This document shows positions 13,651-23,543 of a stretch of DNA of 25,775 bases, in pieces (positions within the stretch are counted from its first letter, which is position 1; each line of letters begins with the position of its first letter). The notes under the pieces were generated by a model. The model was not told where the DNA came from, did no database searches, and saw only the letters and a program-made list of their open reading frames with translations. This DNA is from a virus. The position numbers and the translations under genes were made by a program. The stretch spans positions 1 through 25,775 of the IMG/VR virus record IMGVR_UViG_3300007734_000518. The stretch is one strand, 5' to 3'.

Positions 13651-14510
13651 AAATTCTGATCACAGGTGATGCCGGTTTTGTTGGGCGTGCCTTTCATCGC
13701 GCACTTGATGACAAAAATCACGAGATTACAGGCATTGATTTAGTCAATGGCAAAGAGGTTCGACACTTCTTTGCTACCGACACCACTCAGTTTGATGTGG
13801 TGATTCACCTGGCGGCAATTGTCGGTGGGCGAATGACCATTGAGGGAAATCCATTGTCAGTTGCCTCTGACCTTGCCATTGATGCAGATATGTTTCAATG
13901 GGCGTTGAAAACTCGTCCGAAGCACATTGTCTATTTCTCATCATCTGCGGCTTATCCGATTTTCTTGCAGAAACTTGCCTACCAACAAAAATTGCGTGAA
14001 ATTGACATCAATCTTGAACATATCAGAACACCTGACTTCACCTATGGTTGGGCAAAGTTGTCAGGTGAAATGCTTGCCTCTTATGCACGAGCTGAAGGTT
14101 TGAAGGTCAGCGTTCTTCGACCATTTAGCGGATACGGTTCAGATCAGGCACTTGATTACCCATTCCCATCCTTTATTGAACGAGCAAAGCGCAAGGCAGA
14201 CCCATTTGAAGTGTGGGGCGCAGGAACTCAGGTGCGAGATTTTGTCCACATTGATGATGTTGTTGGGGCAACCTTTGCAGCAGTCACAAACGATGTTGGA
14301 GTAATGAACATCTGTTCAGGCAGACCAACCTCTTTCATTGAGTTGGCAGAGATGGTCATGTTGCAAGCAGGTTATCTTGCACCCATTAAGACCAATTTGA
14401 ACGCACCTGTTGGCGTTGAATACAGAGTCGGCGATCCGACTTGGATGTTGCAAAACTATGAACCAAAGATTTCTCTTGAAGAAGGCATTGCTCGCGCACT
14501 TGCCTCATAA
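13647..14510 (+). CDS. NAD(P)-dependent sugar-nucleotide epimerase/dehydratase (extended SDR)
   Basis: A 287-residue enzyme with the extended SDR set: GDAGFVG (7-13) for the dinucleotide, HLAAIVGG, SSSAAYP (98-104), catalytic Y133 and K137 in TYGWAKLSGE, and RDFVHIDDVV near the C-terminus. It would change a nucleotide-linked hexose (epimerisation, or epimerisation plus reduction as in GDP-fucose synthase). I prefer the ATG at 13647, which overlaps the previous stop (ATGA) and is preceded by GGGGGA; an in-frame ATG at 13635 is also possible. It probably supplies the donor for the adjacent transferases. It is the last gene before a strong terminator. Confidence 0.85.
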   Translation: MKILITGDAGFVGRAFHRALDDKNHEITGIDLVNGKEVRHFFATDTTQFDVVIHLAAIVGGRMTIEGNPLSVASDLAIDADMFQWALKTRPKHIVYFSSSAAYPIFLQKLAYQQKLREIDINLEHIRTPDFTYGWAKLSGEMLASYARAEGLKVSVLRPFSGYGSDQALDYPFPSFIERAKRKADPFEVWGAGTQVRDFVHIDDVVGATFAAVTNDVGVMNICSGRPTSFIELAEMVMLQAGYLAPIKTNLNAPVGVEYRVGDPTWMLQNYEPKISLEEGIARALAS

Positions 14511-14560
14511 GAAATCCCCCTCACCATCTTGTCGGTCATGGTGAGGGGGATTTCTTTGTC
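14511..14560. terminator. Strong rho-independent terminator, bidirectional
   Basis: A perfect 17-bp inverted repeat (14511-14527 with 14538-14554) with a 10-base loop begins immediately after the epimerase stop; T-rich bases (TTTGTCTTTG) follow. It separates the late plus-strand transcript from the convergent minus-strand operon. A shorter A-rich flank on the other side allows it to stop minus-strand transcription too. Confidence 0.9.
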
Positions 14561-14570
14561 TTTGTGTGAC

Positions 14571-15029
14571 TTAAATATATTCCATCATCGGTGCAGGTTG
14601 AATGTCTTTGATTACCTCATAGAACTTGCCTGACTCGTGCAATGATCCTGCACCCACGACATATCCATTGTGCTTAATGTCAACACCTTCACGCAATTTG
14701 CCTTTGAATTTGGCATCTTGTGGTGCGGTGTAATACAGATGCAAGCCATCGCCTGTTGCGACTGTGAAGGTGTCAAGGTTGAGACCATCTGTTGTTCCAC
14801 CATTGCGGAAATCAATGTCAAAGACAACCAATGATGAAGGCGCACAAGCGATGCCAATGTTGAGCATCGGTGCGCGAGTGAACCACTTCTCAATCTCTTC
14901 AATGTCAGTTGTTGCAGATTTGTACCCATTCTTTGCAATAGGAAAGAAAGGTGTCTTTTGATAAGGTGCAACAGGCAAGATGTGCCAACCCTTTTCAGCG
15001 AAGGCAATGGCGGTGTCAGCTTTTGTCAT
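14571..15029 (-). CDS. Stand-alone PrimPol domain (bifunctional primase-polymerase, N-terminal type)
   Basis: A 152-residue protein comprising only the catalytic domain of the primase-polymerase family (PF09250 type). Seen: AEKGWHILPVAPYQKTP at the start, the metal-binding VVFDID (D71, D73), GDGLHLYY with H97, and VDIKHNGYVVGAGS after it. No helicase or C-terminal domain follows. AAGGAT precedes the ATG, which overlaps the stop of the upstream ribbon-helix-helix gene (ATGA). A second PrimPol-like domain is fused to the helicase at 21471-23543, so this copy may act separately, for example in lesion bypass, repriming or interference. That role is inferred. Confidence 0.85.
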   Translation of the reverse strand: MTKADTAIAFAEKGWHILPVAPYQKTPFFPIAKNGYKSATTDIEEIEKWFTRAPMLNIGIACAPSSLVVFDIDFRNGGTTDGLNLDTFTVATGDGLHLYYTAPQDAKFKGKLREGVDIKHNGYVVGAGSLHESGKFYEVIKDIQPAPMMEYI

Positions 15030-15157
15030 TTGATATATCCTTTCAAGAAATCCACGATGACTTCAGAGACAGATTTGCCTTCTGACTTTGCCTTTGCCAT
15101 CGCCCTTGCCCATAGTTGATCGCTCACGCGAACTGATCTAACCTTTTTGCCTACCAT
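15026..15157 (-). CDS. Ribbon-helix-helix (CopG/Arc-type) DNA-binding protein, 43 aa
   Basis: A gene too short for routine ORF calling. The 43 residues match a minimal ribbon-helix-helix unit: basic lead, a strand KVRSVRVSD, helix A (QLWARAMAKAKSEG) and helix B (SVSEVIVDFLKGYIK). Such proteins dimerise and bind operators through the strand. It begins directly after the stop of the membrane-protein gene and overlaps the PrimPol start by four bases. It is the natural candidate for autoregulation of this operon or for control of the divergent promoters upstream, but no operator was identified. Confidence 0.75.
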   Translation of the reverse strand: MVGKKVRSVRVSDQLWARAMAKAKSEGKSVSEVIVDFLKGYIK

Positions 15158-15322
15158 TTACAACACCACACATTCACTCATTGAACCCCAACACCAACCA
15201 AGAAACTCTGCATTGGGTGAATCAATACCAACCCACCACAGATTGCTTGCAATTTGCCAAATAAGAATGATGCCAACTGCAATTGCAATTGCTCGCACTT
15301 TCTTTCCGCGCTTTGTGATCAT
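15158..15322 (-). CDS. Small single-pass membrane protein (54 aa)
   Basis: A basic N-terminus (MITKRGKKVR) followed by a hydrophobic segment at about residues 10-25 (AIAIAVGIILIWQIA) and a Trp/Cys-containing tail (FLGWCWGSMSECVVL). The positive-inside rule places the short N-terminus in the cytoplasm and about 28 residues outside, with two Cys that could pair. The stop abuts the ribbon-helix-helix start; GGAG lies upstream of the ATG. No family is recognised. Superinfection exclusion or envelope interaction are possible roles for such a protein, without direct evidence here. Confidence 0.6.
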   Translation of the reverse strand: MITKRGKKVRAIAIAVGIILIWQIASNLWWVGIDSPNAEFLGWCWGSMSECVVL

Positions 15323-15326
15323 CTCA

Positions 15327-15452
15327 TCACTCCATTTCTTCTAATAGTGCCGACAACATTTCAAGGTGATACTGCTCTTGCTCGCGTTCATTGCAAGAGT
15401 TTGCTTCTTTTGCTTGCTCCAAGTGGTATTCAGCGACATCTTTGATTTTCAT
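15327..15452 (-). CDS. Small acidic helical protein (41 aa)
   Basis: Reads MKIKDVAEYHLEQAKEANSC, then NEREQEQYHLEMLSALLEEME: a Glu-rich helix likely to form a coiled coil. Its ATG overlaps the TAA of the upstream gene (TAATG) and the upstream C-terminal codons supply GGAAGG as ribosome binding site. No family recognised. The frame is supported by its place in an unbroken chain of coupled genes. Confidence 0.55.
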   Translation of the reverse strand: MKIKDVAEYHLEQAKEANSCNEREQEQYHLEMLSALLEEME

Positions 15453-15592
15453 TATGCACCTTCCTTTGGTGAACAATTATTGCAATGCAAGCGATGAATG
15501 CTCCCAATTGCAGTTTTTGTCTCAAGAGTAAATTCCATTTCCATTCCGCAATATTTGCACGCCAATGCTCTTTTCAATTCGTTGCTTTTCAT
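15452..15592 (-). CDS. Small zinc-ribbon-like protein (46 aa)
   Basis: Two CxxC pairs, C12/C15 in ACKYCGMEME and C37/C40 in HCNNC, about 22 residues apart, form a compact zinc ribbon; His residues at 33 and 36 sit beside the second pair. The C-terminus is KEGA, and its GGTGCATAATG end is shared with the two upstream genes. Start and stop both overlap neighbours by one base. Function unknown; zinc ribbons of this size often bind nucleic acid or protein partners. Confidence 0.65.
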   Translation of the reverse strand: MKSNELKRALACKYCGMEMEFTLETKTAIGSIHRLHCNNCSPKEGA

Positions 15593-15750
15593 TATGCACC
15601 AATCTTTCTGTCACAGGCAGGACACAACATAAAGGGTTGTTGATGCCATCCCCAACGATGCCCATTCAACATTGATCTGTAAAATGAATCTTCAATCTCA
15701 TTTGGAATTCCTGCATCAAATAGTTCTAATGCTTTTTCTTTTGTAGTCAT
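15592..15750 (-). CDS. Small protein with CxxC pair (52 aa)
   Basis: Helical start MTTKEKALELFDAGIPNEIE, then HRWGWHQQPFMLCPACDRK with H31, H36, C43 and C46, which could hold one zinc ion. It ends KIGA-stop through the same GGTGCATAATG junction. No family recognised. The chained overlaps with neighbours on both sides are the main evidence that it is a gene. Confidence 0.6.
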   Translation of the reverse strand: MTTKEKALELFDAGIPNEIEDSFYRSMLNGHRWGWHQQPFMLCPACDRKIGA

Positions 15751-16007
15751 TATGCACCTGCCTTTGTGTAATCATCGTAGTTGTAAGACATTGCCCACTT
15801 GTAGTTGTGATCAAAACGCTTGTGGTAATCAACTTCAAACTGTACGAATGGCTTTGATGCTCCACCTGTGCGAGTCATCCAACCGCAAGAACATTCTGCA
15901 TCCCAACCCCAATTGCCACGCATTGTTGAGTTATGACGAACTTTTTCATTGCCATCATAAACAAACCATTTGATTGTCACTTTTGTATCTGTTGCAACTA
16001 GCTTCAT
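15750..16007 (-). CDS. Small CxC...HxxxxH zinc-binding protein (85 aa)
   Basis: First clear gene of the minus-strand operon, with AAAGGAAAG before the ATG. A Trp-rich beta segment leads into AECSCGWMTRTGG (C39, C41) and then FEVDYHKRFDHNY (H62, H67): a CxC...Hx4H arrangement that recurs in small actinophage proteins and is probably a zinc ribbon. The C-terminus KAGA-TAA overlaps the next ATG. Role unknown. Confidence 0.65.
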   Translation of the reverse strand: MKLVATDTKVTIKWFVYDGNEKVRHNSTMRGNWGWDAECSCGWMTRTGGASKPFVQFEVDYHKRFDHNYKWAMSYNYDDYTKAGA

Positions 16008-16084
16008 TTTGCTTTCCTTTTCTTTTTTTGGGAACCTTTCCCCCTACAAGAAGAACAATACGCCTCATCCATACGGATGTCCAT
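16004..16084 (-). CDS. Possible micro-gene with CxxC and Lys-rich tail (26 aa)
   Basis: Reads MDIRMDEAYCSSCRGKG followed by a Lys/Arg tail, and its TGA overlaps the ATG of the next gene (ATGA), like other junctions in this operon. An upstream in-frame GTG at 16093 would add MSC and a third Cys. There is no ribosome binding site, so it would need leaderless or weak initiation. The Lys-rich tail is encoded by the purine-rich ribosome binding region of the following gene, which may be its only function. Confidence 0.3.
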   Translation of the reverse strand: MDIRMDEAYCSSCRGKGSQKKKRKAK

Positions 16085-16171
16085 ACATGACACAAAGCAG
16101 TTTTGGCGAGTCGGGTTCCCCTGTGGATAACTTTCATGCGACCATTGGGCATCTCAAAGGAAGGGGTATAA
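16008..16171. promoter_or_regulatory. Divergent control region between the minus operon and the early plus operon
   Basis: This 164-base stretch separates the divergent starts at 16007 and 16172, so it should hold promoters for both arms. On the plus strand TTGGCG (16103-16108) and GATAAC (16126-16131) are spaced by 17 bases and form a weak sigma-70-like pair. A perfect DnaA box lies across the latter. Part may encode a micro-gene on the minus strand. No repressor-type palindrome stands out. Confidence 0.5.
16122..16130 (-). promoter_or_regulatory. Perfect DnaA box
   Basis: TGTGGATAA is the exact complement of the DnaA consensus TTATCCACA. It is one of two perfect copies I found; the other is at 23528-23536. 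A single box in a divergent promoter region may be regulatory rather than an origin. Confidence 0.45.
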
Positions 16172-21339: not shown

Positions 21340-21474
21340 ATGAGTGACACTTGTGTGAACTGTGGCAATGATGATGGGCCACACGCCATCTGCACAGATT
21401 GCTTAGAAAAGATTGATTGTAATTGCTACAAGGGTCAGAATTTGATTGATGATGTAATCGGGGGAGATGAATGA
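21340..21474 (+). CDS. Small zinc-binding protein (44 aa)
   Basis: Starts eight bases before the methyltransferase stop and overlaps the helicase start by four (ATGA). It contains TCVNCGNDD (C5, C8), ICTDCLEKIDCNCY (C18, C21, C27, C29): six Cys in 25 residues, enough for one or two zinc sites. The acidic C-terminus (DDVIGGDE) is encoded by the helicase gene's GGGGGA ribosome binding site. Longer in-frame starts upstream lie in the methyltransferase and are unlikely. Function unknown. Confidence 0.65.
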   Translation: MSDTCVNCGNDDGPHAICTDCLEKIDCNCYKGQNLIDDVIGGDE

Positions 21475-23543
21475 GTAACTTGCTACCAATCGCCCTGCGC
21501 TTCTTGGCACAAGGAATTGCAGTCGTTCCCACCGCCAATGATGGTTCAAAGCGCCCATCTTTTGCATGGAAGCGATTTGAAACCGAGATGCCGACAACAG
21601 ATGAGTTGTTGATGTGGTTCAAAGATGGTGTTGATGGCATCGGCGTTATCACAGGCAATGTGTCAAATCTTGAGATGTTGGAGTTGGAAGGTCGCGCCGT
21701 AGCTCAAAAGATGCACATTGAGATTGGCGAGATTGCAAAGAACTCAAAACTTGGTGACTTATGGAATCGCCTGAACAATGGTTATCTTGAAATGACACCA
21801 TCAGGTGGGTTGCATTGGTTGTATCGGATTGCAGATGGAGATGTTCCCGGCAACACCGTTCTTGCTCGAAAAGCAGGTGAAGATGGGGGTGTCCTTGCCG
21901 AGACACGCGGCACAGGTGGTTTTTCTATCACCGCACCGTCAGGTGGCAAGACACACCCCAATGGCGGTGATTGGACACTCATTGGCGGTTCCATTGAGAC
22001 AATTCCAACGATCACGATGGAAGAGCGCGATGCCCTGCACTCAATCTTTTCAATGTTCCATGAAATCCCACGAGTTGAAGCGGTGGCAGAAGATGTCATC
22101 TCTCGCACAGATGGCATTTTAACTCCCGGCGATGATTACAACGCCAAAGTCACCTGGGAATCCATCCTTGAACCTCTTGGGTGGACAAAGGTCTATTCAA
22201 AGGGGGATTTCATTGCATGGCGCAGACCAGGTAAGAATGAGGGTATATCTGCAACCACAAACTTCAATGGCAACGGCAAACTCTATGTGTTCTCCACATC
22301 AACCATCTTTGATGCAGAATCTTCATACTCCAAGTTTGCTGCCTACGCCAAAATTGAACACAATGGAGATTTCAAACAGGCTGCCAAAAACCTGCGCTCG
22401 CAAGGATATGGCGCAAGCAATGATCTGAAAACAGATTGGTCAGGTCTTGAAATCCATGCACCTTCAATGGTTCAGCTTCACGATGAGAACGAGGAAGTCA
22501 CCACAAGTTCTTGGATTCCGCGTGAGATTTGGAATGAGGACTTTGACGAGGAACTGCCACCCTCAATGCTTCGCCGTGAGGATGGGCATAACATTTTGTA
22601 TGCAGGAAAGGTCAACGCGCTCTTTGGTGAGTCTGAGTCAGGTAAGACTTGGGTTGCATTAGAAGCGGTGCGGCAGGAGTTAGCCAAAGGCAACTGTGTT
22701 TTCTACATTGACTTTGAGGATTCTGCACGAGGTATCTTCAACCGCCTTAAAACCCTTCAATGCAATATGGACAACCTGAAGTCATTTAAGTATGCCAACC
22801 CTGATGAACCACTCGGTGATGGCATCGGTGAGATTATGAAAACCGAGATCGGCAAATACCTGCCGACTTTGATTGTCGTGGATGGTGTCAACGCTGCGAT
22901 GAACCTGCTTGGATTGGATTTAGAGAAGAACAAGGATGCAACTACCTTCTCACAGAAGGTCTTGAAACCGCTGAAGATATTCGGCGCAGGTATCCTGACC
23001 ATTGACCATGTGACCAAGAGTAAGGACAATCGAGGCAACTATGCCATCGGCGCTCAAGCAAAGCGTGCCGATATTGATGGGGTGGCAATTGCCTGTGATG
23101 TGTCAATGCCATTTGGCAGAGGCATTGACGGCTGCCTTGAGTTGAAGGTGACGAAGGATCGCCCAGGTTTTGTCCGAGCCATCTGCCCTGATGCAAAGAC
23201 ACTTGGCGTTGCCAATATCCGAAACGGCAAGGATGACTCCATCTCTGTCTCAATCTCAGGTGGTACCGTGGCGATACCTTCTGCTGAGTCACGGATTGAG
23301 TTGGTTTCAGCTTTCATGGAGTCTCATGGGTATGAGATGGGGTTGAATGAGATTAGAGAAAAGATTCGCAAAGAAGGTCACAAGATCGGCAACACCGAGA
23401 TTTCAACGGCACTCACCGCCCTTGTGATGAGTCATCATCTGTTGATGAGAGAGGATGGGCAGAAGAAATTGTTCAAGCATCACAAGACATATGTGGTCAA
23501 TGATGTGCGAACTTTGGAGACTTTGCCTGTGGATAACTCTTGA
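21471..23543 (+). CDS. Replication protein: PrimPol-like N-terminal domain fused to a RepA-type helicase/ATPase
   Basis: A 690-residue replication protein. Residues 1-180 look like a bifunctional primase-polymerase domain (FLAQGIAVVPTANDGSKRP, GIGVITGNVSNLEMLELEG, TPSGGLHWLYRI), but the usual DxD metal pair is replaced by E71-L-E73. The central RecA-like AAA_25 domain has Walker A GESESGKT (386-393), FYIDFED and Walker B TLIVVDGV (D471), followed by ILTIDHVTKSKDNRG and KRADIDGVAI. The C-terminus is a helix-turn-helix-like domain. The start is ATG 21471, seven bases after GGGGG. It probably loads at the origin and unwinds DNA; the GC-rich repeat region downstream is a candidate site. Confidence 0.88.
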   Translation: MSNLLPIALRFLAQGIAVVPTANDGSKRPSFAWKRFETEMPTTDELLMWFKDGVDGIGVITGNVSNLEMLELEGRAVAQKMHIEIGEIAKNSKLGDLWNRLNNGYLEMTPSGGLHWLYRIADGDVPGNTVLARKAGEDGGVLAETRGTGGFSITAPSGGKTHPNGGDWTLIGGSIETIPTITMEERDALHSIFSMFHEIPRVEAVAEDVISRTDGILTPGDDYNAKVTWESILEPLGWTKVYSKGDFIAWRRPGKNEGISATTNFNGNGKLYVFSTSTIFDAESSYSKFAAYAKIEHNGDFKQAAKNLRSQGYGASNDLKTDWSGLEIHAPSMVQLHDENEEVTTSSWIPREIWNEDFDEELPPSMLRREDGHNILYAGKVNALFGESESGKTWVALEAVRQELAKGNCVFYIDFEDSARGIFNRLKTLQCNMDNLKSFKYANPDEPLGDGIGEIMKTEIGKYLPTLIVVDGVNAAMNLLGLDLEKNKDATTFSQKVLKPLKIFGAGILTIDHVTKSKDNRGNYAIGAQAKRADIDGVAIACDVSMPFGRGIDGCLELKVTKDRPGFVRAICPDAKTLGVANIRNGKDDSISVSISGGTVAIPSAESRIELVSAFMESHGYEMGLNEIREKIRKEGHKIGNTEISTALTALVMSHHLLMREDGQKKLFKHHKTYVVNDVRTLETLPVDNS

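Follow-up and report, generated by a model that had tools for sequence, protein, structure and literature searches.

The seven minus-strand genes at positions 14571-16007 of the window (the whole stretch of DNA analysed, 25,775 bp of a single IMG/VR virus contig) form a real, conserved and actively shuffled accessory operon, whose function we infer. The same architecture is found in about 100 related contigs and combines a nearly universal ribbon-helix-helix (RHH) gene with exchangeable micro-genes and an optional PrimPol gene; nearly all close relatives also have repeats at the operon promoter. On balance, we lean towards an early accessory operon, autoregulated by the RHH protein, whose swappable genes interact with the host in the manner of acr-aca operons and in which PrimPol is an optional passenger. 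No paper describing the locus was found in the open-access literature. The elements of the operon and its surroundings are the following.

14509-14556, not strand-specific: bidirectional terminator hairpin with A/T runs on both sides (19-bp stem, -32.4 kcal/mol), between the converging SDR and PrimPol genes
14571-15029, minus: stand-alone PrimPol of the archaeo-eukaryotic primase superfamily, 152 aa (PF09250 match and alignment)
15026-15157, minus: RHH protein, 43 aa, proposed autorepressor (PHROG 6506 match and alignment)
15158-15322, minus: single-pass membrane protein, 54 aa, with a basic N-terminus (one hydrophobic segment in the sequence)
15327-15452, minus: acidic helical micro-protein, 41 aa, family f4, exchangeable (found in 9 loci)
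15452-15592, minus: zinc-ribbon-like micro-protein, 46 aa, two CxxC pairs, family f29, exchangeable (Pfam match below cut-off)
15592-15750, minus: micro-protein with one CxxC, 52 aa, family f8, exchangeable (sequence and locus comparison)
15750-16007, minus: first operon gene, 85 aa, family f6, exchangeable (homologues in relatives)
15748-15758, 15590-15600 and 15450-15460, minus: copies 1, 2 and 3 of the junction sequence GGTGCATAATG (Shine-Dalgarno, stop and start in one)
16030-16044, minus: 5′-leader hairpin GGGGGAAAGGTTCCC (stem sequences differ among relatives)
16055-16083, minus: operon promoter TGGACA-N17-TATTGT, divergent, sigma-70-type (from the sequence)
16056-16086, minus: candidate RHH operator made of three GTATNG direct repeats (spacings 12 and 13 bp) that cover -35 to -10
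16122-16130, minus: perfect DnaA-box-like 9-mer TTATCCACA in the divergent intergenic region

In operon order the proteins are 85, 52, 46, 41, 54, 43 and 152 aa long. An initial annotation had described seven minus-strand reading frames here, five of them under 60 codons, and this is borne out: the window has no other convincing minus-strand gene, and all remaining plausible genes are on the plus strand. Each gene had also been said to touch the next. Five of the six junctions do overlap or abut; in operon order they are TAATG at 15750, TAATG at 15592, TAATG at 15452, a 4-nt gap separating the membrane protein gene from the 41-aa gene before it, which is the exception, an abutment at 15158/15157 and ATGA at 15029. 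The placement of the operon between a terminator and a divergent promoter agrees with the hairpin and with the promoter, which reads from 16083 to 16055. Among relatives, the stem of the 5′-leader hairpin is GGGGGA...TCCCC or GTAGG...CCTAC, and the pairing seems to be kept.

The window has no near match among 50,697 phage records, which hold no near-identical cultured phage. Its gene order runs from head, tail and lysis genes through SDR and glycosyltransferase genes to the operon, and then to a rightward early/replication set that includes a WhiB gene, a PDDEXK nuclease and a 690-aa PrimPol-ATPase protein. The host is probably actinobacterial, because a WhiB gene is present, and the habitat of the phage is probably fresh water. 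A similar GC content (44.8%) and genomes of 39 kb are known from cultured phages of freshwater Nanopelagicales that carry WhiB (PMC10202952). Rfam and tRNA searches gave no match, and with PADLOC models no operon protein was matched and no known defence system was found. Integrase or resolvase genes are absent from 11 of the 13 records searched, all 13 possibly fragments, and this weakens the lifecycle switch that had been listed, beside superinfection control and counter-defence, among the possible roles of the operon. Tyrosine recombinase genes are found in two relatives, G007 (L430) and G010 (L334), and therefore some relatives may be temperate.

Related loci were collected by a PrimPol search (42 viral contigs), a PrimPol alignment search (best 80 of 423) and an RHH alignment search (best 80 of 232). 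Removal of duplicates left 103 related viral loci, a sample that leans towards close relatives because the best 80 per search were kept. The location of the operon is fixed: in every locus showing both sides, the RHH strand is opposite to p16282 and VRR on one side and to SDR or DUF6378 on the other. The RHH gene is present in 98 of the 103 loci, and in four of the remaining five the PrimPol gene starts no more than 47 nt from the contig end. It precedes PrimPol on the same strand in all 76 loci where PrimPol has sequence upstream, within 60 nt in 67 of them. PrimPol itself is optional, as 19 loci have the RHH gene last despite room for another, facing the convergent neighbour. Across the operon genes dN/dS is 0.04-0.28 (RHH 0.04, PrimPol 0.10, membrane protein 0.20, acidic protein 0.07). 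In many relatives, e.g. L003, L005 and L013, a second small membrane-protein gene (family f3, 81 aa), absent from the window, lies downstream of PrimPol, either overlapping its end or after it.

The micro-genes are combined in many ways. There are 43 gene orders among 49 loci, a count that sets leader reading frames aside and is slightly inflated by the inclusion of L045, L091 and L141, which are among the few differently organised phages; the flanking genes stay collinear. Families f4 and f7 each have six distinct predecessors and f5 has five. Families f6, f10, f15 and f21 are first in nearly all cases, and f4, f11, f16 and f22 are usually last before the membrane protein gene. That some families keep the first position and others the last suggests replacement by way of the flanks and not random insertion. 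The membrane protein gene is immediately 5′ of the RHH gene in 33 of 43 loci; it is kept in most close relatives and is diverged, replaced or missing in more distant loci. Where measurable, the exchanged genes are under purifying selection (dN/dS 0.07-0.28). The fixed locus, the near-universal RHH gene and this combinatorial exchange support the earlier view of an accessory module with a regulator. Independent scattering of homologues among other phages had been named as evidence against a unit, and here the outcome is divided. The RHH-PrimPol pair survives, adjacent in 76/76 loci, but the micro-genes are shuffled, and cassette homologues are also carried by phages of a different organisation that showed neither RHH nor PrimPol (L141, L047). 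Homologues of the 85-aa f6 protein are also found in other phage groups (L045, L047, L050-L052).

The initial annotation had counted three zinc-type proteins, and this holds for one of them. The 46-aa protein resembles a zinc ribbon of the Elf1 type (16.9 bits; cut-off 29.8) and is the only plausible zinc ribbon in the operon; the 52-aa protein has one CxxC and the 85-aa protein CxC only. Pfam and PHROG searches revealed no known anti-host homologue or recognisable family among the micro-proteins, and no match for the 52-aa protein. Family f11 (52 aa; L016, L018 and L030), which is absent from the window, shows a weak resemblance to RNA polymerase inhibitors of phages (phrog_1307 at E 0.0023; PF16857 score under the cut-off).

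The three copies of GGTGCATAATG in the window are confined to three operon junctions, where the sequence merges a Shine-Dalgarno sequence, the stop codon of the upstream gene and the start codon of the downstream gene. In related loci there are 43 exact copies on the operon strand and none on either strand of 796 kb of flanks, and 44 different family pairs have the sequence within one mismatch. A longer motif joins two open reading frames at 122 of 122 testable sites in viral contigs, both frames being under 130 codons at 105 of them; 42 of the 122 sites come from contigs that resemble none of the ten marker proteins used. A shorter form joins genes at 78 of 108 sites in bacterial genomes, where recurring length pairs suggest a few conserved gene pairs. 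The KAGA/KVGA protein ends at motif sites are imposed by the search pattern and add no evidence. Micro-gene arrays with GGTGCATAATG and KVGA protein ends also occur in L125 and L175, in which no similarity to the window phage was detected. Overlaps of 1 or 4 nt are found at 212 of 345 junctions; the figure comes from a gene caller that gives no reward for overlapping starts, because the other caller does reward them. The preferred reading of GGTGCATAATG is a convergent translation coupler, which may supply microhomology as a by-product. A dedicated recombination element was rejected as the main reading, since ordinary genes in bacterial operons are joined by the shorter form as well.

The RHH protein matches the Arc-like repressors of PHROG 6506 (E 1.9e-10), with Pfam RHH models below cut-off. 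Its sequence has the strand-helix-helix order, and R7 and R10 of the DNA-contacting strand are invariant in 21 aligned homologues, down to 30% identity. The 31 close loci share a highly conserved intergenic region, and most relatives have the promoter form TTGACA-N16-TATCGT. GTATNG repeats with 12-13 bp spacing lie across -35 to -10 in nearly all 31 of these loci, which are related and not independent samples. The array is the only one in the window, with no second pair, and none arose in 20,000 shuffles of the region, the pattern having been picked after inspection. A 12-bp repeat of similar type is found at promoters of the distant loci L041, L086, L107 and L145, and an 11-bp repeat in L072. 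No such repeat is visible in the distant loci L063, L154, L039, L130 and L131, and in several other distant loci no promoter was recognised. The repeats are a candidate RHH operator. Autoregulation of the operon promoter appears to be the likeliest reading, because a conserved control region, promoter-spanning repeats and invariant R7 and R10 occur together.

Two other interpretations of the regulator and its region were dropped. The dyad CATCCGTATGGATG was set aside as an operator since its arms are poorly kept in relatives and the GTATNG direct repeats are kept better; a toxin-antitoxin pair was rejected, as no toxin-like partner adjoins the RHH gene. The 9-mer TTATCCACA is present in all 30 displayed leaders of close relatives. 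In the distant loci L041, L080, L098, L107, L142 and L145 it is near the same place, often inverted, and many distant loci are without it. Because of these absences, and because a possible rightward -10 overlaps it, the site was not accepted as proof of an origin. The 9-mer occurs once more at 23528, close to where the 690-aa replicase gene ends.

PrimPol is a single 152-aa domain with no fused helicase. It matches PF09250 over profile positions 1-156 of 158 (E 2.5e-29, 103.2 bits against a cut-off of 22.8), and the operon thus ends, as had been annotated, in an RHH protein and a PrimPol. The residues of the catalytic DxD, His and second Asp (D71, D73, H97 and D117) do not vary among 18 aligned homologues, and for this reason the active site looks intact and the enzyme looks active. 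A PDB sequence search gave no match. With a modest AlphaFold2 model (pLDDT 66), the top three PDB matches are all the PrimPol of pRN1 ORF904 (TM 0.40, E 0.028-0.12). A fused PrimPol-ATPase replicase of 690 aa is encoded at 21471-23543, and 10 of 12 records with the stand-alone PrimPol, all possibly fragments, also show a fused protein of 690-699 aa. In the fused replicase, glutamates (LELEG, AETRG) align with the catalytic aspartates of PrimPol, in relatives too, and since they replace these aspartates its own primase activity is uncertain. Phages that lack the stand-alone PrimPol have the same glutamates in the fused protein, and therefore a simple division of labour does not follow.

The favoured reading can be set out as a sequence of proposed steps. 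The operon would be transcribed leftward from its own promoter, presumably early, and its micro-genes would be translationally coupled by overlapping stop-start codons. The small proteins encoded by the exchangeable micro-genes at its head are most likely directed at the host, for takeover or counter-defence. RHH protein made from the same mRNA would repress the promoter through the GTATNG repeats across -35 and -10, giving a self-limiting burst of expression like that of acr-aca operons. Micro-genes may be replaced mainly by recombination in the conserved flanks, i.e. the promoter/leader on one side and the membrane and RHH genes on the other, and short shared junction sequences perhaps help the exchange. 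The stand-alone PrimPol probably helps to prime replication or restart of phage DNA.

Several points speak against this reading: no known anti-host homologue among the micro-proteins, a repeat pattern picked after inspection that is not visible in several distant loci, known Aca proteins that are helix-turn-helix and not RHH, and PrimPol, which has no clear place in an anti-host operon. In a bolder version, which we consider rather unlikely, the locus would be a plug-in site for host-directed micro-proteins, run by the RHH protein in many environmental actinophages and holding dozens of undescribed small-protein families, with PrimPol recruited for the counter-host programme and not for ordinary replication. 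Alternatively, as in the archaeal plasmid pRN1, the operon might control replication, the RHH protein setting the dose of PrimPol, priming taking place at or close to the divergent intergenic region, where the DnaA-box-like site lies, and the micro-genes being passengers. The unbroken RHH-PrimPol order (76/76), the conservation of TTATCCACA, the RHH gene before a primase/polymerase gene in Microbacterium phage Hendrix, the repressor-PrimPol operon of pRN1 (PMC4234260) and the pRN1 PrimPol as best fold match of the modest model are all consistent with this. We nevertheless find it doubtful: 19 loci retain the RHH gene and operon but have no PrimPol, a 690-aa PrimPol-ATPase replicase is already encoded by the phage, the DnaA-like site is lacking in many distant loci, and no iterons were seen.

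Quite improbable is a switch of the immunity or lysogeny type, in which the RHH protein, similar to Arc and Mnt, would control a divergent early promoter while the membrane protein excludes superinfecting phage. The RHH protein is of the Arc-like family, the operon and the early replication operon face each other across one common regulatory region, the integrase-side operon of Arthrobacter phage MrSmee ends in a related RHH gene, and two relatives have tyrosine recombinases. The repeats, however, lie on the operon's own promoter, with no clear placement on the rightward one, distant loci have a diverged membrane protein or none, and 11 of 13 records, possibly fragments, have no integrase or resolvase. 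Expendable small-gene regions are common in actinophages, and most of the micro-genes have no recognisable function. The locus might be a dispensable site that gains and loses short genes with no function in common, kept by recombination in the conserved flanks. The purifying selection on the exchanged genes, the strict coupling and the constant promoter and RHH gene make such neutral turnover very improbable.

If the host-interaction reading is correct, the RHH gene and promoter repeats would serve as bait for takeover and counter-defence proteins of phages that are abundant yet hardly cultured, much as aca genes have served in finding anti-CRISPRs. Phages with and without a stand-alone PrimPol beside the same regulator would also offer a natural comparison for the role of a single-domain primase.

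The initial annotation did not recognise this combination of genes, but precedents exist in pRN1 (PMC4234260) and in phages Hendrix, DillTech15 and MrSmee. One likeness is to acr-aca operons (PMC9410906), which have variable small genes first, a conserved DNA-binding protein late or last and an operator in the core promoter; here the candidate operator, GTATNG from -35 to -10, is likewise in the core promoter. Known Aca regulators are helix-turn-helix proteins, whereas here the regulator is an RHH protein of no known Aca family. The candidate operator consists of direct repeats, known anti-CRISPR or anti-defence genes are absent, and PrimPol may follow the regulator. Its RHH regulator and the lack of any known anti-defence gene are why the operon is not classed with acr-aca. 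A layout that works similarly is found in archaeal viruses, whose early anti-defence genes share a regulator (PMC11065993).

In the orf56-orf904 operon of pRN1, a small repressor gene lies directly before PrimPol and a terminator follows (PMC4234260). The RHH-PrimPol pair is alike in forming one operon with a terminator after it, and the modelled PrimPol may be of the same fold family. Here, however, PrimPol is optional and has no helicase fusion, a second, fused PrimPol replicase is present in the phage, and the RHH gene exists without PrimPol. The 100-nt origin stem-loop that follows the PrimPol gene in pRN1-type replicons was not seen; a 48-nt terminator-like hairpin is found in its place.

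Among actinophages, Mycobacterium phage DillTech15 (gp69-67) and Arthrobacter phage MrSmee (gp27) have short counter-strand operons with an RHH gene of the same family last, but without the adjacent PrimPol found here. In Hendrix, as here, the RHH gene is just before the primase/polymerase gene. Neville gp93, Nebkiss gp94 and Bobby gp128 are, like the PrimPol described here, single domains without helicase (218-238 aa, 33-38% identical); no RHH gene is annotated alongside them, and in Neville a small membrane-protein gene overlaps PrimPol. The junction sequence has a parallel in the start-associated sequences of cluster K mycobacteriophages, where a short repeat also lies just upstream of the starts of many gene families (PMC3203893). 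That repeat is the 13-bp GGGATAGGAGCCC upstream of starts, whereas the repeat described here also holds the upstream stop and the next start.
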